From positions 1 to 64,000 of the forward strand of contig JAGBNC010000021.1 in assembly GCA_017634595.1 (NCBI GenBank): a stretch of 64,000 nt of DNA. Direction: 5' to 3'. A model generated the notes under the pieces. The model had not been told where the DNA came from, did not search any database, and saw only the letters and a list, made by a program, of their open reading frames with translations. The translations under genes and the position numbers were made by a program. Positions 4,378 through 56,702 of this stretch are shown in pieces (positions within the stretch are counted from its first letter, which is position 1; the number at the start of each line of letters is the position of its first letter). The DNA comes from Bacteroidales bacterium (GTDB taxonomy: Bacteria; Bacteroidota; Bacteroidia; Bacteroidales; UBA932).

Positions 4378-4446
4378 TCCGGCGTCAGTGCCCTCCGGAG
4401 CCCATCAATCCCGGGTAAAAGGGCTCCGGAGGGCACTGATGCCGGA
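4378..4446. repeat. Long intergenic hairpin, copy 1
   Basis: Two 26-bp arms (4378-4403 and 4421-4446) are complementary at 25 of 26 positions around a 17-nt loop. Read on the minus strand the loop is TTTTACCCGGGATTGAT. No T-run follows on either strand, so it is not a plain intrinsic terminator. The outer part of the left arm (GCTCCGGCgTCAGT) also occurs at 4335-4348, inside the end of the upstream gene. Three more hairpins of the same build lie at 25165, 29903 and 56644. Confidence 0.85.
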
Positions 4447-5393: not shown

Positions 5394-5482
5394 TCCCCGC
5401 AAGCCAAGGGGTGCTGAAGCCCTGCTAAGGGCCGATGCTGAGATAATACCCTCGAACCTGATCGGGATAATGCCCGCGGAGG
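5394..5482 (+). promoter_or_regulatory. TPP riboswitch (THI element)
   Basis: The core motifs are all present in order: GGGGTGC (5409-5415), GCTGAGA (5437-5443), CCCTCGAACCTGATC (5449-5463) and GGATAATGCC (5465-5474). The terminal stem pairs 5394-5400 with 5475-5482. The aptamer ends only 15 bases before the ATG at 5498, so control of translation initiation is more likely than a separate terminator. It is predicted to shut off the thiamine-uptake genes when thiamine pyrophosphate is plentiful. Confidence 0.93.
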
Positions 5483-5497
5483 AATATATAATGCATT

Positions 5498-7915
5498 ATG
5501 ATACAGAGACTTATTCTTAATCTGTCGGCGGTCTGCACAGCTGCCGTCGTTTCCGTTGTTGCATTTGCGCAAGCACCATCTGACTCACTTGTGGTTGAAC
5601 AGCTGCAAGAAGCCGTAGTCGGAGCGGTACGCGCATCAAGCAGCGCACCTTTTGCCGTATCTACCATCAACAGACAAGCACTGCAGGATTTTTCGGCCAC
5701 AGGAGTCGAGCTGCCGATGCTGATTGCACATACGCCGGGTGTCATCGCCTGGAGCGAAAACGGTGTGGGCACGGGCACCAGCTACATGAGAATCCGCGGT
5801 GCCGGCGGCTCACGCATCAATGTAACTCTTGACGGGGTGCCCCTCAACTCCCCTGAAGACCAGACCGTATTCTGGGCCAACATGAACTCCTACGGCACTT
5901 TGCTTGGCAGCGTCCAGATTCAGCGCGGTGTAGGATCTTCTACCAATGGAGACGGAGCATTCGGAGGCACTATTGCACTTGCATCAAAGGCCCCGTCGCT
6001 TGTGCCTGAGGCTTCATTTTCAGCATCTTACGGCTCATGGAACACCGCCAACTGGGGAGGCAATCTCTCCAGCGGACTGCTGTGGAACCACTTCACTGCC
6101 GATGCAGCATTCCACCAGACCACCACGAACGGATATATTCCCGGCACAGCCGGCAGGTCCGGAAGCTACTATGGAGGCCTGAGCTGGCTGGGGAGCGGCT
6201 GGAAGCTGTCGTACAAGCTTTTCGGCAACTTCGAGACCACCGGACAAGCCTGGAGCGGCATTACGGCAGGCGACAATGACATGTCGCTGATGGACGGAAC
6301 CTACGGCACTCAAACCGGCATCCACACCTACGCCGACATGTACAATGCCGGGCTCGGACTGTACAACTCTTTGTACGAAAGGATCATAATAGACGGTGAC
6401 AAGTACTCTACGGAGAGGTACAAGATGAGGGACGGATCGTTGTGGCCCCGTACCACCGACAATTTCTGGCAGCGCCACCACATTCTCAATTTCTCAACCC
6501 TTGCCGGCGACTTCTGGAAGTTCTCAGTATCGGCACATTACACAAATGGCTACGGATACTACGATGAGTTCCGCTACCAGAACAAGCTCATCAAGTACGG
6601 TATCTCCAATTTCACTGATGCTAAGGGGAATACTGTAGCGCTCAGCGACTTCGTGCGCCGCAAAGGCCTCGATCAGGATACTTACGGGCTCGTGGCCAAT
6701 GCCCATTTCACCAAAGACCGCTGGAGCGCGGTGGGCGGAGTGAGCGTTCAGGAGTTCAAGGCAGACCATTTCGGTTATCTGACATATATAGGCAATGAAG
6801 AGCTGGAAAGTCGTCTGCGCAGCGGCGGCAAAGACTACCAATACTACAGTTCCAACGCTTCGAAGCTGGATGCAAGCGCCTTCGTAAAAGCCACTTACGC
6901 CCTGTCTGAGGCATGGAGCATCTTCGGCGACGTCCAGTTCCGCCATGTCAGCTACAAGACCGGCGGCTACAACGACAAATACATTGACAACGGCGACGGC
7001 ACCGCATCAAAGCACATTCTGAATGTTGACGAAAAGTACAACTTTCTGAACCCAAAAGCCGGTGTCAACTTCAGCCTCGGAGGGCACAGGGCCTTTGCTT
7101 CATTTGCCATGAGCAACAGGGAGCCGGAGCGTAACAACTTCACCGACAACGGCAAATACCCCGCGCCCCGCGCCGAGCGCCTGTTGGACTGGGAAGCTGG
7201 ATACCAATACAATGCACGCAAGTGGCATGCAGGAGTCACTCTCTATTATATGAAATACAAGGACCAACTGGTCCAGACAGGTGAGACGAGCGATATCGGC
7301 GAGCCGCTGACTACCAACATCTCCGATTCTTACCGAATGGGAGCAGAACTCACCGCCGGATGGGATATCTGCCGATGGCTGTCTATCGAAGGTAATGCAG
7401 CCCTGAGCCGCAACCGACTGCTGGATTTCGATGAATACGTCGAAGACTGGGACGACTGGAAGAACAACCCCGATGCCGCTAAATACCACTGCGACGGTGA
7501 CGGCGACGAGCTCCGCCGCTTCCACTATACCGACAAGGCTCTGGCCTTCTCCCCTTCCGCTATCCTCAACGGATTTGCCGACATACACTTCGGCGGGTTC
7601 AAGGCTGTCTGGCACACAGGCTACGTGAGCCGTATGTATCTGGACAACAGCGAGAACGCCGACCGTTCTCTCCCGGCCTACAGCCTCTCGGACTTAAGTC
7701 TAAGCTATAGCCTCAAGCCTCGTAAAATACTGAAGGAGATCAAGTTCGGGCTGGACTTCAAAAATGTATTCTCTGCCAGAGTCGCTCAGAGCGGCTGGGT
7801 GTACAGCGCCATATGCGAGAGCTACGGTCACACGCCCGACAATAGATACTACCAGTTAGGATTCATCCCGGTGGCACCCTTTACCGTACTGGGCCATATA
7901 GTTCTGAATTTCTAG
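5498..7915 (+). CDS. TonB-dependent receptor, predicted thiamine (or precursor) importer
   Basis: This 805-residue outer-membrane receptor has a signal peptide ending near AFAQ, a plug domain (about residues 35-160; MRIRGAGGSRINVTLDGVPLN and SVQIQRGVGSSTNGDGAFGGTI are typical) and a long beta-barrel ending in a hydrophobic C-terminal strand (VLGHIVLNF). There is no carboxypeptidase-like extension and no SusD partner. The TPP riboswitch directly upstream and the PnuT gene 4 bp downstream indicate thiamine or a thiamine precursor as the substrate. Substrate assignment is by context only. The start ATG 5498 is preferred over the out-of-frame ATG 5491. Confidence 0.92.
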   Translation: MIQRLILNLSAVCTAAVVSVVAFAQAPSDSLVVEQLQEAVVGAVRASSSAPFAVSTINRQALQDFSATGVELPMLIAHTPGVIAWSENGVGTGTSYMRIRGAGGSRINVTLDGVPLNSPEDQTVFWANMNSYGTLLGSVQIQRGVGSSTNGDGAFGGTIALASKAPSLVPEASFSASYGSWNTANWGGNLSSGLLWNHFTADAAFHQTTTNGYIPGTAGRSGSYYGGLSWLGSGWKLSYKLFGNFETTGQAWSGITAGDNDMSLMDGTYGTQTGIHTYADMYNAGLGLYNSLYERIIIDGDKYSTERYKMRDGSLWPRTTDNFWQRHHILNFSTLAGDFWKFSVSAHYTNGYGYYDEFRYQNKLIKYGISNFTDAKGNTVALSDFVRRKGLDQDTYGLVANAHFTKDRWSAVGGVSVQEFKADHFGYLTYIGNEELESRLRSGGKDYQYYSSNASKLDASAFVKATYALSEAWSIFGDVQFRHVSYKTGGYNDKYIDNGDGTASKHILNVDEKYNFLNPKAGVNFSLGGHRAFASFAMSNREPERNNFTDNGKYPAPRAERLLDWEAGYQYNARKWHAGVTLYYMKYKDQLVQTGETSDIGEPLTTNISDSYRMGAELTAGWDICRWLSIEGNAALSRNRLLDFDEYVEDWDDWKNNPDAAKYHCDGDGDELRRFHYTDKALAFSPSAILNGFADIHFGGFKAVWHTGYVSRMYLDNSENADRSLPAYSLSDLSLSYSLKPRKILKEIKFGLDFKNVFSARVAQSGWVYSAICESYGHTPDNRYYQLGFIPVAPFTVLGHIVLNF

Positions 7916-16597: not shown

Positions 16598-19500
16598 TTA
16601 TTCTGTGACTGGGCGGATTAATTGTCCATAATAGCGGTAGCGATAATCTAAATGTATTGAAGCACTAGGCGTTGTAAAAACATAGATATACCAAGCTGAG
16701 GAATTTATTGCAAAGGAAGATGTCCAATAGTACCCGTTCCCGGACCCGGTATCCGGAAAGAAAATTGACTTGTCTGTATAACCCGCCTTATTGCTAGTTA
16801 CAACCACACCCCCAACTCCAGTTCCTTTGTAATTGGATGTTCTAGCCCATTTGCAATTATCAATGAGTTCTTTCAAGTCCACATCCGTTGGCATTCGCCA
16901 ACTGCCACCCCATCTCACATGAGCCACATCATCTTCCAGGTCAAGAACAGTTTTTCTATCAACCGCATTACTGTATTTGGAGTACTGCCCATATTTCGGG
17001 TCCTCTCCACTTTTTCTAAACTTGTAATTATTCCAAGTAAAATCACTCTTCGTTGTGATTTCGCCCCAGGCATATTTTTTCCCGGATTCAGTAGGAAAAG
17101 TAGCACCGACATTGATAGAGGCCCACTTGACGCTCAAGCCCAAGTCAATTGCTAACTCAGGCATTTCCAACACAGTGACCGAACAAGATGCCGTATATCC
17201 ACCATCAACCGTAATAGCCATTATTTTTGTTGAGCCAGGGCTCACAGCCTTGATCTTGCCACTCTGATCGACAGTAGCAATACTCTCGTCGATGCTGGTC
17301 CAAGTAACTCTTTTATCTGTCGCCCCTGAAGGGTAAATTGTTGCTTCTAATGAAGAACTATCTCCCTCATACAACGACAGTTCTGTCCTATTCAAAGATA
17401 CGGACTCCACGAGGCAAATAACAGTTACCGTGCAACTTGCACTCAGATCACTGCCGTCAGTCGTTCTTGCTGTTATGGTCGTATAGCCATTGGCAATGGT
17501 TGTTACCGTCCCATATGAATCTACTGTGGCTACCGAAGCATTTGACGAAGTCCATTCCAAACGCTTATCTGTGAAATCTGAGGGCAAGACTGTTGCTATC
17601 AGTGTTACAGTGTCATCTCCAACAGTCATCTCCATCGTTGTGTGATCCAGAGACAGTGATGTAACATACTGATTAACTGTTACAGCGCATATGGCACTCA
17701 TCGAACCGTCAGCTGCCTTGACTGTTATTTCAGCGTTCCCGACACTGACAGCTGTAACCAGTCCATATTGGTTAACTGTCGCCACAGATTCATCTGAGCT
17801 GGACCACAAAACAGCTTGATTGGCTGTGGATGGGAGCGTTGTAACGGATAAGGCAGAACTCTTTCCCTTATAGATTGTCAATTCTGTCTTGTCCAAGGAA
17901 ATAGATTCAACACGGTCCGCATAAACCTTTACCGTGCAAGTCGCACTTTTATTGCTGCCATCGCGAGCTGTCGCAGTTATGGTAGCGGTTCCTGCTGAAA
18001 CAGCAGTGACTATGCCCTTATCATCAACAGTGGCTACTGATAATTTAGATGATTTCCAATCTAATTGTTTATTTGTATACTCTTCCGGCTGGACTGTTGC
18101 AGTCAACGCAAAGGGCTCAGCCCCAACATATGTCTCAATAGGTGATTTATCAAATGTGATTGACTGTATCGGCTGATTGACATCTACCCGGCATTTTGCC
18201 GACTTGGTGCCGTCGGCTGAATACACCGAAATCGATACTTTTCCTACTGATACTGCGGTTACCTCCCCTTCAGAATCCACCGTTGCCACCGACTCGTCTG
18301 TGCTTGACCATGTCAGATTTTTATATGTAGCGTTATCCGGAAGGATTGTAGCCTTTAATATTGATGACTCAGTTTTACCAATCGTCAGTATGAGTGTCTC
18401 GGGTATTGTTATTTCTGATACAGGAACTACCGCGCCATATACCGGTCGTACGCCAAGGCCAAAGTAACGGTAGCAATTCCCAATCTCTTTGCCTGACTGG
18501 CTGAAATAAGGGGACAGGGCAAAATAAGAGCCATCCTCAGAAATGCTTGACGACCAGTAATTGCCGGCAGCACCCTCTTCAGAGATGTTGTTCCCACTGC
18601 GAATGCCGTTGGCTGGAAGGAAGATGGAGTTGCCGTTATGACCTGTTATCTTATAACCGTTGACTCCGTTCCAAGTTGTCCAAGCCCAGGTGCAGTTGTT
18701 CATCAACTCAGAGACTTCCTCTTTTGATGGCAGACGCCAGTCACCTACCCAGGCTGCAGCGGCAGCATCATCTGTAAGGTCAAGGATGGTTTTGTTGTCA
18801 ATTGTACCGCAGTTTGAGTCAAGAACGTACTTTGAGAAAGGGCCGTTCTTGCTGGTGCCAAACTGATAATTCGCCCACCGATAATCATTTTTCGGCACTT
18901 TTTCGCCCCAAGCAAAGTACCTACCATACTCTTCTGGTTTTGTAGCTCCAACGTTGTATGATGCCCATTTCACGCTCAAACCTAAATCTATAGCCACAGG
19001 AGGAGCTGCGTTAACCCAGTCCTGAGCATTGCCAAGGTCAAGCATTTTTACCGCGCCATTCCCAGATACCGTATTAAGGGCGGTTATTGTCCGCATCGTT
19101 ACAAACAAATCTCCAAGTGAGTTGTAACAGTCCACTTTAATGCCAGAACTGAAGTTTACCGGCAGCATTGCAAAGTAGAAATCGGAGACCTCACCATTGG
19201 TGACGATTGTAATAGAAGTCTGGCCGTTGGAAGCAGATTCGACAGTGAGAGCACCGTTTGATCCAGAAGTGACTTTCAATTCACCGTTGCTGCCGGCACT
19301 GATAATCTCCCCACTATTGCCAGAGAAGACCACCTTGTGAACATCTGCGGCTGATACGAAGTGGACTATGCAGGCAGCATTATGAAAACGTATGTCGGGG
19401 TTCTCAATGTCATTACAGAAAGCCGCGCATACGTGAGCCTCGGTAAATGAGGTATACCGTTGATTATCTTTGACTGGAGAACTTATGTACATGATGTGGT

Positions 19501-25164: not shown

Positions 25165-25227
25165 AGCCCGGTCCCTATCCGGGGGCCTTTTAACTTAAAC
25201 TGATGGCCCCCGGATAGGGACCGGGCT
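25165..25227. repeat. Long intergenic hairpin, copy 2
   Basis: Two perfectly complementary 23-bp arms (25165-25187, 25205-25227) around the 17-nt loop TTTTAACTTAAACTGAT. It lies between the divergent sulfatase and menG genes, just upstream of the menG promoter. No T-run follows on either strand. Confidence 0.9.
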
Positions 25228-27477: not shown

Positions 27478-28686
27478 ATGAAAAGACTATTTGAATCCGC
27501 CCTGGCAGCCATGACAATTTTCGTTGCGGCTTCTGCGCTCGCCGTCTCCTGCACTGGTGAATCCGAAGCTCCCGGGAAAGCTTTCGATGAGCTTCCAGTT
27601 CTTCAGGAAGATGAGCTGTGGGCTGTCTTCTACGCCCTTCCCGATTCGGTTATGCCGGAAGAGATTAAGCCGGCCGCAGCACGCGAGGCATTCAAAGCCA
27701 AGTTTACAGACATGCAGGATGGCGTTTTGGGGGACGGTGAAGGCTTTTTCGATAAGTGGTCTGATACCAACAATTCTATTTACTGGATAGATTATTTCAG
27801 CAAGCCCGAAGACTACGTGTGGTCAGATGAAGAAGAGCAAGTGGCCCATCAATACATCAATCTGCATGTTTACGCCGGCGCTGATACCAACAGGCTTTTC
27901 GCTGTTGTGCAGAAGGGCGCGTTTCTCGACGGCAATGACAATGCGGAAGCTGATGCATGCTATTGGTTTGACAAGAGCAGCAAGAAGATGAGCGCGGCAA
28001 GCCTTCAGCTCGACACTCCTTATACTGAAGACCAGATCACCGAGGATGCTCTGCTCCTGTACGGCAGCGAAAATCTGTACTATGCGATTAAGAACAAGAA
28101 GTATTCTCCGAATTACGTCGATCGCGGCTTCAAAATATATATCGATGATGTCGGAGAGTGCGGAATACATTATGAATGGGACGGAACCAGGTTCGTACGC
28201 AATACTAAAGATGGTACCGTATGCCTATACAACTACGGCTTCGGCAACAACATCATCATCGGGAAAAGCGTGCCTTTCTCCGTGCCCGGATACAAGACCG
28301 AAGAAGCCGGCAGGAAAGGAGAGCTTGAGATCATTTACAATCTGATAAAGGAGGGAGAAGACGATCCCGCATTGATTATCCACGCCGATAACAATATCAA
28401 TATCACTGAAATAGAGGTATGCTCCGGACGTTATTCAAATATTTATAACATCCACCCCGGCATGAAAGTCAGCGAACTAATGAGCATACTTGCAGAACTC
28501 TCTTCCGGGCTTGAAGATCCTGTCTATACATCCATCTTAGAAGACGAAAACGGATTCGTGGTGATATACCATGGCTTCGATGAGGACTTTGCTTATAAAG
28601 TCAAGAAGGAAGATTATCTGGGCAACGAGCAGTTCAAGCCTGAAGCTACTATAGCAAGGGTAACGCTCACAAATGCAGTAGGTTAA
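27478..28686 (+). CDS. Lipoprotein of unknown function
   Basis: The 402-residue protein has a lipoprotein signal (ASALAVSC, Cys at about 25) and then an acidic, Tyr- and Asp-rich chain without a domain I can name. Segments such as YINLHVYAGADTNRLFAVVQKGAFLDG suggest a beta-rich fold. Its last base is shared with the first base of sstT (TAATG), so the two are translationally coupled and may be functionally linked; that pairing is odd for a surface lipoprotein. Base composition is more A/T rich than in sstT. Confidence 0.7.
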   Translation: MKRLFESALAAMTIFVAASALAVSCTGESEAPGKAFDELPVLQEDELWAVFYALPDSVMPEEIKPAAAREAFKAKFTDMQDGVLGDGEGFFDKWSDTNNSIYWIDYFSKPEDYVWSDEEEQVAHQYINLHVYAGADTNRLFAVVQKGAFLDGNDNAEADACYWFDKSSKKMSAASLQLDTPYTEDQITEDALLLYGSENLYYAIKNKKYSPNYVDRGFKIYIDDVGECGIHYEWDGTRFVRNTKDGTVCLYNYGFGNNIIIGKSVPFSVPGYKTEEAGRKGELEIIYNLIKEGEDDPALIIHADNNINITEIEVCSGRYSNIYNIHPGMKVSELMSILAELSSGLEDPVYTSILEDENGFVVIYHGFDEDFAYKVKKEDYLGNEQFKPEATIARVTLTNAVG

Positions 28687-29891
28687 TGGCATCTGTGCTG
28701 AAGTGGTGGACCGGCAGCAGCCTGGTGTTGCGCATACTCTGCGGTCTGGTCATTGGCGCAAGCCTCGGGCTTGCAGCACCGGGCTGGACGGGTATCGGGA
28801 TATTAGGGCATATTTTCGTCAATGCTCTTAAGGCTATTGCGCCGGTATTGGTAGCATTCCTGGTAACTTCTTCTATCGCAAAGGCAGGAGGCGGGCTGGG
28901 CCCCAAGTTCCGTACAGTTATCGTTCTTTACCTGGTGGCGACACTTGTGGCTGCTGCAGTGGCTGTAGCGGGAAGTTTCCTGTTCCCCGTCAACCTCAAC
29001 CTTGGTCAGGCAGCCGAAGGAAGTGCTCCCGGCAGCCTTACCGATGTATTCAAGAATCTGCTGAGCAAGATGGTGATGAATCCCCTCCAGTCAATCGCCG
29101 AAGCAAATTATATCGGCATCCTGTTTTGGGCTGTCATCATTGGCCTGGGGTTGAAAATTGCTGCCAGCGAATCCACCATCAAGGTATTCAGCGAGATCTC
29201 CGATGTAATCACCCTGGCTGTCAAGTGGATTATCCAGTTCGCACCTTTCGGTATCCTTGGATTGGTCTTTACCGCTGTATCAGAAAGCGGCCTGGAGATA
29301 TTCACCGTTTACGGCAAGCTTTTGCTCCTGCTGGTAGGCTGTATGCTTACAAGCGTATTGGTTTTCAACCCTCTTATATCTTTCATTGCCACTGGCAAGA
29401 ATCCCTACCCCTTGCTGTTTACATGCCTGAAAGAAAGCGGCATCAACGCCTTTTTTACCCGTTCGTCGGCAGCCAATATTCCAATCAACATGGAGTTGTG
29501 CAACAAACTCGGCATTGAGGAGGATTTCTATTCGGTGAGCATTCCGCTGGGAGCCACAGTAAATATGAACGGTGCCGCCGTCACCATCACCGTGATGACC
29601 CTGGCAGTAGCCCACACGCTTGGTATTGAGGTGAGTTTCGCCTCGTCGCTTTTCTTGAGCGTCATTGCCACGCTCGGAGCATGCGGCGCATCGGGAGTAG
29701 CCGGAGGGTCACTGCTGCTCATTCCTATGGCCTGTTCTTTCTTCGGTATCAGCAACGACGTAGCTATGCAGGCCGTGGCCATAGGATTCATAATAGGTGT
29801 TATCCAGGACTCCGTGGAGACTGCGGTAAACTCCAGCGGTGACGTATTCTTCACCGCCACCGCCGAACTACGAGCTACAAAGAAGAAGTAG
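28686..29891 (+). CDS. sstT: Serine/threonine:Na+ symporter SstT
   Basis: This 401-residue protein of the dicarboxylate/amino-acid:cation symporter family (DAACS) has about eight membrane helices and two re-entrant loops. The hallmarks FTRSSAANIPINMELCNKLG (Ser-rich HP1) and SIPLGATVNMNGAAVTITVMTLAVAHTLG (substrate and Na site) match SstT rather than glutamate carriers. It imports serine and threonine with sodium. serB, the phosphoserine phosphatase, lies just beyond on the other strand, and glyA is elsewhere in the window, so serine handling is concentrated here. Confidence 0.93.
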   Translation: MASVLKWWTGSSLVLRILCGLVIGASLGLAAPGWTGIGILGHIFVNALKAIAPVLVAFLVTSSIAKAGGGLGPKFRTVIVLYLVATLVAAAVAVAGSFLFPVNLNLGQAAEGSAPGSLTDVFKNLLSKMVMNPLQSIAEANYIGILFWAVIIGLGLKIAASESTIKVFSEISDVITLAVKWIIQFAPFGILGLVFTAVSESGLEIFTVYGKLLLLLVGCMLTSVLVFNPLISFIATGKNPYPLLFTCLKESGINAFFTRSSAANIPINMELCNKLGIEEDFYSVSIPLGATVNMNGAAVTITVMTLAVAHTLGIEVSFASSLFLSVIATLGACGASGVAGGSLLLIPMACSFFGISNDVAMQAVAIGFIIGVIQDSVETAVNSSGDVFFTATAELRATKKK

Positions 29892-29902: not shown

Positions 29903-29976
29903 ATAGTTCAGCAGATATATCCCCCCGGAACCCTTTTCCCATGTTTTATGGGTTCCGGGGGGACATATCTGCTGAA
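29903..29976. repeat. Long intergenic hairpin, copy 3
   Basis: Two 29-bp arms (29903-29931 and 29948-29976), complementary at 28 of 29 positions, around the 16-nt loop TTTTCCCATGTTTTAT. It lies between the converging sstT and serB genes. The one mismatch is A-C in plus RNA but G-U in minus RNA. No T-run follows. Confidence 0.9.
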
Positions 29977-29999
29977 CTTCAACCTACATTGCGGATAAC

Positions 30000-31208
30000 T
30001 TACGGGTCGATCTGAGAATCCTTCAGGCCTAAGAAGTAAAGAATTCCGTCAAGGCCAATCGTCGAAAGATTCTGGTCGGCAGTGGCCTTGACCTTCGGTT
30101 TGGCATGATAGGCTATGCCAAGGCCGGCCAGGCCAAGCATCGGGAGATCATTGGCTCCGTCTCCCACAGCCACCGCCTGCTCCAGATGAATACCTTCCAT
30201 CTGGCACAAGAACTTCAGTAACTCGGCTTTGCGGGTACCGTCCACTATCTCTCCTACATAGCGCCCTGTAAGTTTGCCGTCCTCAATCTCCAACTCATTG
30301 GCGTACACATAGTCAAATCCGAACTTGAGTTTGAGATAATTGCCGAAGTAAGTAAAGCCTCCGGACAAAATAGCGGTCTTGTAACCCACCATCTTGAGGA
30401 TGCGCATCATCCTCTCAAGGCCCTCGTTGTAAGGCAGGTTGCGGGCTATGTCCTCCATGACACTCTCGTCGAGCCCTTCCAGCAGCGCTACGCGGCGGCG
30501 GAAACTCTCCTTGAAATCGATTTCTCCACGCATGGCGGAAGCGGTGATGGCCTTTACCTGCTCCCCCACGCCGTGCCTGTCGGCAAGTTCGTCAATGCAC
30601 TCCGTCCCTATCAATGTAGAGTCCATATCGAAACAAATCAGACGACGTGACCTACGGTAGATGTCATCTTTCTGGAAAGAAATGTCAAGCCCCGATCCGG
30701 ATCGTGACAAGAGCTCCTTCTGGAAGGCCAGCCTTTCATCCTGACGAAGTTGGCCACGTATCGAAAGCTCAATACATGACTTCCCTACCGGATTGTCCAG
30801 GGGCATGCGCCCGGTAAGGCGCTTGATTGCATCGATATTCAGGCCGTATTCCGTGATGACAGACGACACCTCGGCAATTTCGCTGGCAGTGACCTCACGT
30901 CCGAGCAAAGTCACGATATAGCGGTTGCGTCCCTGACGGGCCACCCAGGCATCATACTGCTCCCTTTCAATAGGAGTAAAGCGTATCTGAACGCCAAGCC
31001 TTGAAGCCTCGAACAGCAGGTCCTTCATAATGAAGCCCGACTGTTCCGTGGTGGTCCTGAACAATATGCCAAGCACCAGAGACTTATGGATATTGGACTG
31101 GCCGATGTCCAGCACGAAGGCATTGTACCGGGCCAGTACGGTCATCAAGGCCGCAGTCAAGCCCGGTTTGTCCTCGCCCGAGATATTAACCTGAATAATC
31201 TCAATCAT
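30000..31208 (-). CDS. serB: Phosphoserine phosphatase SerB with N-terminal ACT domains
   Basis: SerB releases serine from phosphoserine, the last step of serine synthesis. Of 402 residues, about 1-175 form two ACT-like regulatory domains (VNISGEDKPGLTAALMTVLARYN at the start) and the rest is a HAD phosphatase with the nucleophile in CFDMDSTLIGTECIDELADR and the motif VGDGANDLPML. The long N-terminal part is common in Bacteroidota and actinobacteria and may sense serine. It is the last gene of the 38069-30000 operon, 4 bp after the fumarase. Confidence 0.95.
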   Translation of the reverse strand: MIEIIQVNISGEDKPGLTAALMTVLARYNAFVLDIGQSNIHKSLVLGILFRTTTEQSGFIMKDLLFEASRLGVQIRFTPIEREQYDAWVARQGRNRYIVTLLGREVTASEIAEVSSVITEYGLNIDAIKRLTGRMPLDNPVGKSCIELSIRGQLRQDERLAFQKELLSRSGSGLDISFQKDDIYRRSRRLICFDMDSTLIGTECIDELADRHGVGEQVKAITASAMRGEIDFKESFRRRVALLEGLDESVMEDIARNLPYNEGLERMMRILKMVGYKTAILSGGFTYFGNYLKLKFGFDYVYANELEIEDGKLTGRYVGEIVDGTRKAELLKFLCQMEGIHLEQAVAVGDGANDLPMLGLAGLGIAYHAKPKVKATADQNLSTIGLDGILYFLGLKDSQIDP

Positions 31209-54829: not shown

Positions 54830-55335
54830 AAAGGTTTCTGTTAATACTTGCTTTATGCGCAGCCACGCTGACGGCGGCTGCCCAAAGCGGCGCACAAGCC
54901 CTTCTGAAAAGGATTGAGGGCAAGAGGGTATCGTTTGACTACAGCCTCACCACCGCCGAGAAAGTACCTGTGAAGCACAGCGGGAGCGCCGTCATTGAAG
55001 GCAACTGCTATCGCATCGACGATAACGGCATGGAGATTTGGTGCAACGGCAAGACACGCTGGACCGTGGACAACGTAGCCCGCGAAGTGTACATTGAAGC
55101 ACCTGGGAGCGAGGCAGAGCTGCTGATTTCTCCCGAAAAGCTGCTTGGCAATGTCAAGAATCTGGTGGCAGGGGGCACAAGCGCAAGCGGCCAATATACA
55201 GGCGAAGGCCCTGGCAAAGACGCCACCTTCGTGCTAACATCTATCAAAACCAGCGAGCCTAAAGGAGACAGGGCGGAATTCACTTTCAGCACATCTTCCC
55301 TCAAGGCTCCCTGGGTAATTACCGACTTAAGATGA
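54826..55335 (+). CDS. LolA-like outer-membrane lipoprotein carrier
   Basis: The 169-residue secreted protein (signal MKRFLLILALCAATLTAAAQ) has a LolA-like fold: IEGKRVSFDYSLTT, HSGSAVIEGNCYRIDDNGMEIWCNGKTRWTVDNVAREVYIE, with the aromatic-rich beta strands that bind lipid anchors. LolA-like proteins carry lipoproteins from the inner to the outer membrane. Bacteroidota carry several such proteins and the exact client is not known. It overlaps ftsK and mnmA by 4 bp each. Confidence 0.82.
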   Translation: MKRFLLILALCAATLTAAAQSGAQALLKRIEGKRVSFDYSLTTAEKVPVKHSGSAVIEGNCYRIDDNGMEIWCNGKTRWTVDNVAREVYIEAPGSEAELLISPEKLLGNVKNLVAGGTSASGQYTGEGPGKDATFVLTSIKTSEPKGDRAEFTFSTSSLKAPWVITDLR

Positions 55336-56636
55336 AAATCTGCGTAGGACTGTCCGGAGGCGTAGATTCCAGCGTTGCCGCCTTGTTGCTGAAGCAGCAG
55401 GGCTACGACGTATTTGCTATGTTCATGCAGAACTGGCACGACACAGAAGGCACCCTCCACGGTGATTGTGAGTGGGAAGAAGACAAATTCGTGGCGGAGC
55501 TGGTGGCCCGCAAGCTGGGCATCCCCTTCTACTTTGTAGATCTGTCGGATGTGTATCGGCAGAGGGTGGTGGATTACATGTTCGACGAGTACTCTAAAGG
55601 ACGCACACCCAATCCCGACGTTCTGTGCAACAGGGAAATAAAATTCGACGCTTTCCTCCGGAAAGCCGAAGCTCTGGGCGCGGATATGGTCGCCACCGGT
55701 CACTATTGCCGCAAGGAACAGGCCCCTGACGGGAGCTGGAAGCTGCTGGAAGGCATAGACCCAGGTAAAGACCAGAGCTATTTCCTCTGCCAGATCAACC
55801 AGGAGCAGTTGTCCAAAGCCTTGTTCCCGATAGGCGGACTGCTCAAATCGGAAGTCCGGGCTCTGGCAGCTGCCGCCGACCTTCCTTCGGCAGACAAAAA
55901 GGACTCGCAGGGCATATGTTTCGTGGGCAAGGTAGATCTTCCGGTATTCCTGCAGCAGAAGCTCAAAAGCGTAGAGGGTGACGTGGTGGAAGTGTACGAC
56001 GCATGGTATAGTGATTCGGGAAAATACAAGCACGACAATTCCATCCTCAGTACATCAGACCCTGAAAGTCTTAGCGATGAAGAGCTTCTCGAGCTGTCGG
56101 AGCCGCTTGACTACTCCGGAATACAGTTTGCCACTGAGACTTACCGTTCCGGCAAGCATCACATCAAAAAGACCCGCTATAAAGACAATCCCTACGGAAA
56201 GATTGTCGGACGCCATGAGGGGGCGCAGTTCTACACCATAGGCCAGCGGAAAGGGCTTGCCATTGGAGGACATGCCAACCCTCTGTTCGTTATATCCACA
56301 GATATAGAAGCCAACCGCATATATGTAGGAGAAGGTGAGAGCCATAAAGGGCTGTGGCGCAAGGTCTTGCGTATTACGCCCGATGAGATTCACTGGATGC
56401 GGCCAGGGCTCGGACTCACCGTGGGCGGGAGTCTGCGCTGCCGGGTGAGGATTCGTTACAGGCAGGAGCTGCAGGATGCTGTGCTGCTGATGCGCCGGAA
56501 TGGACTATTCGTAGTGTTCGACAAGGCCCAGAGGAGCATCACGCCAGGGCAGTTTGCCGCTTTCTATGCTCTGCCTGACCCTGACGATCCTTACGATGCC
56601 CCCGAGCTACTAGGCAGCGGAGTTATACAAGAATGA
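55332..56636 (+). CDS. mnmA: tRNA-specific 2-thiouridylase MnmA with an internal insertion
   Basis: MnmA adds sulfur to U34 of Glu, Gln and Lys tRNAs. The P-loop GLSGGVDSSVA, the catalytic Cys in NPDVLCNREIKFDAF and the second Cys in DSQGICFVGK are present. The protein has 434 residues, about 70 more than usual: an acidic insertion (VYDAWYSDSGKYKHDN...ELLELSEPLDYSGIQF..., about residues 219-290) replaces a short loop between VEGDVVEV and GRHEGAQFYTIGQRKGL. The C-terminal beta-barrel is intact. A long hairpin follows the stop. Confidence 0.93.
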   Translation: MKICVGLSGGVDSSVAALLLKQQGYDVFAMFMQNWHDTEGTLHGDCEWEEDKFVAELVARKLGIPFYFVDLSDVYRQRVVDYMFDEYSKGRTPNPDVLCNREIKFDAFLRKAEALGADMVATGHYCRKEQAPDGSWKLLEGIDPGKDQSYFLCQINQEQLSKALFPIGGLLKSEVRALAAAADLPSADKKDSQGICFVGKVDLPVFLQQKLKSVEGDVVEVYDAWYSDSGKYKHDNSILSTSDPESLSDEELLELSEPLDYSGIQFATETYRSGKHHIKKTRYKDNPYGKIVGRHEGAQFYTIGQRKGLAIGGHANPLFVISTDIEANRIYVGEGESHKGLWRKVLRITPDEIHWMRPGLGLTVGGSLRCRVRIRYRQELQDAVLLMRRNGLFVVFDKAQRSITPGQFAAFYALPDPDDPYDAPELLGSGVIQE

Positions 56637-56643
56637 TCCATCG

Positions 56644-56702
56644 GGCGGTATCGGCTCTGCCGCCCTTTTACAGGTTTTATGGGCGGCAGAGCCAATACCG
56701 CC
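56644..56702. repeat. Long intergenic hairpin, copy 4
   Basis: Two 22-bp arms (56644-56665, 56681-56702), complementary at 21 of 22 positions, around the 15-nt loop TTTTACAGGTTTTAT. The one mismatch is C-A in plus RNA and G-U in minus RNA. It lies between mnmA and the lytic transglycosylase gene, ending 13 bp before the latter's ATG. No T-run follows. Confidence 0.9.

Follow-up and report, generated by a model that had tools for sequence, protein, structure and literature searches.

Four gaps between genes of this Bacteroidales contig hold long hairpins whose stems look unrelated and whose loops look alike. What kind of element keeps a loop and a fold whilst leaving much of its stem sequence free, and does it act as DNA or as RNA? 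The answer that we favour, at a probability of about 60%, is that the hairpins belong to a mobile palindromic element, seen to date in a single genus, which acts as DNA and in which template switching equalises the arms and flips the loop.

The four hairpins and the anatomy of their family

In the window, by which is meant the whole 64-kb stretch analysed, all four of the hairpins described in the earlier note are present, with arms of 22–29 bp, no or one mismatch and loops of 15–17 nt (Table 1); three lie exactly where it had put them, and the third, given there as 29903–29976, lies two bases further on. They are the top inverted repeats of the window, scoring 25, 23, 22 and 18, with the next distinct repeat at 14 and a best hairpin score of 12 across three base shuffles of the same DNA. 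Two covariance models were used throughout, R1 built from seven copies and R2 from 76; R2 recovers the four and gives no fifth family place in the window at E ≤ 0.01.

Table 1. Position, arms and loops of the four family hairpins in the 64-kb window
Hairpin	Position	Strand	Arms	R2 score (bits)	Loop	Loop length (nt)
Copy 1	4378-4446	minus	26 bp, 1 mismatch	61.5	TTTTACCCGGGATTGAT (4404-4420, minus-strand reading)	17
Copy 2	25165-25227	+	23 bp, perfect	54.8	TTTTAACTTAAACTGAT	17
Copy 3	29905-29978	+	29 bp, 1 mismatch	70.3	TTTTCCCATGTTTTAT	16
Copy 4	56644-56702	+	22 bp, 1 mismatch	57	TTTTACAGGTTTTAT	15

The settings of the four differ. Copy 1 has a plus-strand ORF 27 nt before it and the next 60 nt on, and copy 2, whose loop is the most divergent of the four, lies upstream of a plus-strand gene starting at about 25292 in what appears to be a divergent pair, the start of the minus-strand ORF being uncertain. 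Copy 3, with the consensus loop of the family, is flanked by convergent genes for a dicarboxylate symporter (28686–29891, plus) and an ACT/HAD protein (30000–31208, minus), and copy 4 begins 7 nt past the stop of a tRNA_Me_trans (MnmA-like) gene (55332–56636, plus), with an SLT-domain gene next (56716, plus). As the earlier note had observed, none is followed by a T-run. No Rfam family reaches its gathering threshold in the window; a TPP riboswitch-like match at about 5397–5501 on the plus strand (L008 2497–2601; 48.7 bits, gathering score 54.3) ends where a long plus-strand ORF, 5498–7915, begins.

For the family as a whole, our own scan gave 98 non-identical hairpins, of which 11 were removed by hand as unlike the family loop and 87 were kept, 44 of them from the host genome. 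The element measures about 60–85 bp, with a stem of mostly 22–33 near-perfect pairs and a loop of 15–17 nt with the consensus TTTTCCC(C)A[T/A]GTTTTAT. When the 87 copies are aligned at the loop, the loop-proximal stem positions 1–13 are informative, with a consensus of roughly CTCCGGGGCCC before the loop, and positions 14–25 hold at most 0.16 bits each (at most 0.03 bits at 15–18). The description of the stems as unrelated thus holds for the outer half and fails for the inner. Similarly, the rule that loops run from TTTT to AT on one strand describes all four window copies, with departures elsewhere (e.g. ...TTTAC), and arms ending in CCC or GCC give way to other terminal bases in some copies outside the window. 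The central proposition, a conserved loop on an outer stem that is free in sequence yet paired, is borne out by the 87 copies.

Pairing is found in 89–98% of copies across positions 14–25 (about 97% at 14–20 and 90% at 23–25, falling to 59% at position 29), although copies were gathered by pairing and a structured model, which favours intact ones, so that decayed copies will be underrepresented and the way of collecting accounts for part of the high pairing. One decayed copy does exist in DnaG of the host (E 0.04). In an alignment of the 76 best model matches (A6), 98.6% of 1518 cells are paired and 571 cells have two-sided changes, with a covariation score equalled in 0 of 500 shuffles of an alignment that had itself been fitted to the structure. 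Among the 44 host copies, outer stems are near-random with respect to one another, with the exception of a subfamily of about ten, counted by eye; 29 pairs of outer stems share at least 7 of 12 bases, where about 11 are expected, and the excess comes mainly from that subfamily.

Distribution, shared sites and signs of movement

In the host genome (G000, 2.59 Mb), R1 finds 46 family places (53 rows less seven opposite-strand repeats of listed places), of which 44 reach E ≤ 3e-4 and the other two are weaker, at E 0.04 and 0.07. Within the genus, R2 matched 26 of 400 genomes at E ≤ 1e-5 and R1 14 of 200 at E ≤ 1e-3, both of which are lower bounds because filters were stricter and candidates per genome few; at least six R2 matches were found in each of G000, G023, G071, G072, G218, G287 and G299. 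Across the order, the host alone matched among 393 genomes, with at least five others of its family among those listed. On an objection anticipated in the earlier note, that long-stem hairpins might simply carry random loops, the host genome gives this result: all 11 matches to a strict loop pattern (CCYTTTT-N5-10-TTATRGG) sit inside long hairpins of the scan list, as do 12 of 14 matches to a looser one (CCCTTTT-N6-14-ATGGG) inside long hairpins. In a named sequence collection, 32 stretches contain the exact loop pattern. Bins titled Bacteroidales or Bacteroidia account for 29 of these: seven in buffalo or yak omasum bins, 11 in RUG bins, which we take to be rumen, and 11 in one bin with no source in its title. 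The stretches L169, L190 and L191, outside such bins, are stemless and were taken as chance matches.

Related hairpins extend beyond what the models retrieve. In a 440-kb sample of G354 (22 stretches, two of which were picked for containing matches), 11 of 16 hairpins were judged by eye to be of the family kind, with stems that end in GGC and loops such as TTTTCCCAAGTATTC, and related loops appear in single matches of G021, G014 and G260 (L307, L309, L310); the family kind is therefore wider in the genus than R2 shows. Lineages of the genus have their own subfamilies, that of G354 being an example. Long hairpins in stretches of other genomes mostly have other loops. Carriage by phage was considered and rejected, as viral contigs gave three stretches with the loop pattern and none with a long stem; for plasmids, one copy was queried and gave no match. 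At the loci read, the genes between neighbouring hairpins are ordinary-looking and different from place to place. Some contigs (L055, L121, L143, L163 and others) end at hairpins or fold back through them, the fold-back arms measuring 128 bp in L055 and 171 bp in L121; the elements therefore seem to interrupt assembly, and copy counts may be too low. At 19260–19530 of L340, also from G354, tandem repeats of about 100 bp hold one hairpin arm each and a full hairpin only in the last.

Comparison of orthologous places shows how copies change. After BLAST of the flanks, 18 site groups were aligned, of which 15 had comparable copies in at least two genomes; the count excludes site M (two hairpins per site) and sites Q and R (no comparable pair), and also the decayed copy in DnaG of G000 and the copy in AtpG of G071. 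The flanks at shared sites are about 70–99% identical between genomes. The loop is inverted in at least one genome pair at 10 of the 15 sites. In 12 pairs of copies with at least 60% of stem pairs identical, 48 differences are compensated on the opposite arm vs 16 that are one-sided. Site A has 14 identical and 13 compensated stem pairs and none one-sided; the AtpG copies of G023 and G287 have identical but inverted loops with 16 identical, five compensated and no one-sided pairs; and one pair at site F runs the other way, with five compensated vs seven one-sided. At sites C and H the stems are nearly unlike, so that replacement and compensation are indistinguishable there. A comparison of one hand-chosen pair per site shows the loop better conserved than the stem pairs at 12 of the 15, the exceptions being D, G and K.

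Copy 4 of the window illustrates the pattern, as its ortholog in L164 keeps 20 of 22 stem pairs and has the loop inverted. At site K, G023 and a 5.2-kb contig of G128 have flanks 99% identical, an identical stem and an inverted loop. This contig may be contamination by a closely related strain, in which case either inversion takes place within a species or an assembler chose between two forms.

Movement is suggested by places that are occupied in one genome and empty in another, and by copies with unrelated flanks, as is expected of mobile elements. The site of copy 3 is empty in G218, G319 and G287, with flanks 77–82% identical, and G319 has a 10-bp hairpin in place of the family copy. At the site of copy 2, a single G319 match spans the joined flanks, and G023 lacks a copy at site J. 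Two copies in G354, separated by 2 kb, share 62 of 68 bp; their similarity stops at the end of the stem, and the flanks are unrelated. No other close non-orthologous pair of this kind was seen in 20 further stretches. With outer stems near random and one near-duplicate pair, the copying step itself is therefore barely observed. No target duplication or direct repeat was recognised, in flanks too diverged for one to be excluded.

DNA or RNA, and what might move the hairpins

Template switching at inverted repeats is described as equalising the arms and inverting the spacer (PMC8604942), and has been proposed to both create and maintain hairpins (PMC8794818). The signature is the one seen here, where arms are kept complementary by paired changes and the spacer turns round at most shared sites. 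We infer that single-stranded DNA at the replication fork would fold into a hairpin or cruciform, and that a polymerase switching template from one arm to the other would copy changes between arms and leave the loop inverted. Such long palindromes would be expected to persist where the hairpin nuclease SbcCD is lacking; SbcCD is described as removing these structures in E. coli (PMC3733652). Our search covered SbcD (TIGR00619, E ≤ 1e-10), which was found in one of 22 genomes of the genus (G013). Of 14 control genomes, 12 have it (8 over the cut-off), and one of these is a Bacteroides. Its absence should help long palindromes to survive without separating carriers from others; as most genomes that have few copies or none likewise gave no SbcD match, the absence is at most permissive. 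A putative factor that recognised the loop by its sequence and any paired stem by its shape would then spread the element, and for that reason loop sequence and pairing would be kept and the sequence of the outer stem would not. A bolder form of the proposal, which we put forward tentatively as having the odds against it, is a new class of bacterial mobile DNA consisting of a hairpin and nothing else, in which an enzyme would recognise a 16-nt single-stranded loop on any stem of about 28 bp and copy the folded strand to new sites, leaving the loop heritable and the stem rewritable. An enzyme of this sort, if there is one, would represent mobile-DNA machinery of a new kind.

The first alternative is that the hairpins work as RNA at the 3' ends of genes, as terminators without a T-run or as stabilisers of mRNA, perhaps cut by RNase III. 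Its strongest point is position: with genes taken as the longest open frames, 24 of 28 copies between tandem genes begin no more than 30 nt past a stop codon, where even placement in the gaps predicts 15.1, and 25 of the 28 are closer to that stop than to the next start. Convergent copies also lie within 30 nt of a stop (16 of 20, in gaps that have two stops each and for which there is no chance level). This crowding may reflect tolerance, targeting or a role at 3' ends. All 13 copies that were folded as RNA were stable, but the loop points along the gene in 12 of 28 tandem copies, and the 87 copies include 11 between divergent ORFs and 17 that overlap ORFs of at least 100 aa, some of these surely spurious. 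Five or more T in the eight bases after the stem occur in one of 28 tandem and two of 20 convergent copies, and intrinsic terminators were rejected as a class on this ground. An RNA stem is expected to tolerate G-U more than A-C, but the 101 mismatches among 2440 stem pairs in the 87 copies comprise 32 G.T/T.G, 32 A.C/C.A and 37 others; read on the gene strand, tandem copies have a G-U to A-C ratio of 12:17 and those overlapping ORFs one of 4:12 (2:3 in convergent and 7:2 in divergent copies, where the choice of strand is arbitrary). Rfam searches of 12 loci at E ≤ 1 returned a sub-threshold TPP match off the hairpin and a MIR2630 match over the hairpin of L012, at 38.8 bits vs a cut-off of 144. 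With no Rfam match at threshold and no wobble preference, an RNA regulatory element was set aside too, and the target for an RNA-binding protein envisaged in the earlier note finds no favour in a loop that is inverted between genomes and a stem that does not prefer G-U. The RNA reading is weak, and we consider it unlikely.

Two DNA-based alternatives seem to us more improbable still. If the hairpins were REP-like repeats that a Y1 (RAYT/IS200-type) transposase mobilises in their single-stranded, folded form, their architecture, dispersal, location near gene ends and lineage-limited subfamilies would all be as expected, and 15 of 20 tested genomes do have Y1 (PF01797) matches, mostly weak ones of 26–36 bits. 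These include the carriers G023, G071, G072 and G287, but Y1 occurs in genomes with and without copies, among them 11 of the 13 other tested genomes. At E ≤ 1e-5 it gave no match in G000, which is 97% complete and has the highest copy count, or in G218 and G299, which also have several copies. A RAYT/IS200 transposase was accordingly rejected as the mover in the host. GTAG and CGTC tags stand by the stem in four and one of 81 fully flanked copies, against four and seven for reversed-tag controls, and stems are about three times as long as those of GTAG REPs; a strict form of the REP/RAYT-like element floated in the earlier note is not supported. A fixed chromosomal DNA-structure site, such as a cruciform bound by a protein, for example in chromosome organisation, selected place by place and not mobile, would account for copies that persist at the same sites between flanks about 70–99% identical, for loops better kept than stems at most sites, and for the fact that none of the strict loop matches in the host genome is stemless. 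It sits badly with sporadic presence within the genus, and movement is indicated by the empty sites, by the near-duplicate pair of G354 and by the copies that lie in frame within conserved genes. The two readings can be compatible.

The mobile palindrome that we prefer is a naturally occurring example of a long palindrome that stays paired with much of its sequence free, and its mismatches bear no sign of selection as RNA. Arm conversion and loop inversion by template switching become measurable in bacterial genomes, in lineages seemingly without SbcD.

Known palindromic repeats and copies inside genes

Among the closest known systems are the LIMP and HyLIMP elements of mitochondria of the alga Lobosphaera incisa, described as dispersed palindromes with an invariant loop in both orientations, of which HyLIMPs #1, 2 and 4 have a conserved inner stem and loop and stem variation that is usually complementary, as here (PMC4524435). 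In the same account they are mitochondrial, confined to one species and built of tandem-pentanucleotide stems around a 7-nt loop, whereas the present family lies on a bacterial chromosome, has non-repetitive stems of mostly 22–33 bp around a 15–17 nt loop and has copies in conserved genes. Rickettsia palindromic elements (RPE) are described as occupying both intergenic places and in-frame positions within unrelated genes, as here, but as being about 150 bp long and encoding a conserved peptide (PMC10969869); our elements are shorter, with a free outer stem, and in AtpG the loop is found in either direction, which sets them apart by description.

REPs associated with RAYTs are likewise short palindromes in many copies, some intragenic, with subfamilies differing by complementary changes (PMC3733652), and REPINs (PMC3116915) were grouped with them as a comparison system. 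GTAG REP stems are typically given as 6–9 bp (PMC3733652); here stems are long and near-perfect, the loop is long, GTAG/CGTC tags are not enriched and Y1 went undetected in G000. The GC clusters of yeast mitochondria are ultra-short mobile palindromes without genes of their own, as are the double-hairpin elements and the family here; the GC clusters studied have terminal short direct repeats and conserved stems (PMC4478555), whereas in this family the outer stems vary and terminal direct repeats were not recognised.

Integron attC sites have imperfect stems with extrahelical bases and are further marked by R boxes at the stem foot and by an integrase. The stems here are unlike theirs, as mismatches are few and many stems perfect. 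No conserved stem foot is visible in the positional information of the 87 copies. No published account of this family was recognised in the literature covered, which included few subscription papers. The family works like LIMP/HyLIMP, RPE, REP and GC-cluster elements, is neither REP nor RPE proper by the features tested, and is a new variety of the known palindromic repeats.

Copies in frame within AtpG, DnaG and TruA, which are conserved housekeeping genes unrelated to one another, extend to a lineage outside Rickettsia what is known of palindromic elements inside genes. Such copies were recognised as model matches located within gene matches. In AtpG of the host (PF00231, E 4e-78), the hairpin lies in frame before an SSNSSMCG motif, and AtpG genes of G000, G023, G071, G072 and G287 all hold matches with differing stems; DnaG holds matches in G023, G071, G072 and G218, and weakly in the host, and TruA of G023 holds one copy. 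No family hairpin was found in the AtpG linker of G218, itself a carrier, nor in AtpG of the relatives G176 and G319. The AtpG linker was recovered at 16 of 28 loci and that of DnaG at five of 26, and the comparison with copy-free genomes is therefore thin, above all for DnaG. Linkers of AtpG and DnaG look like landing places for palindromic repeats in this genus. Other insertions occupy the AtpG linker in G134 and G027 (L244, L245) and the DnaG linker in G183 (L279), reading ...SERSESKN... and ...AGTE..ATSVLA..., and apparently come from different palindromic repeats. In AtpG of G287 (L266), part of the 3' half of the hairpin and the bases downstream of it are tandemly repeated about three times, in frame.
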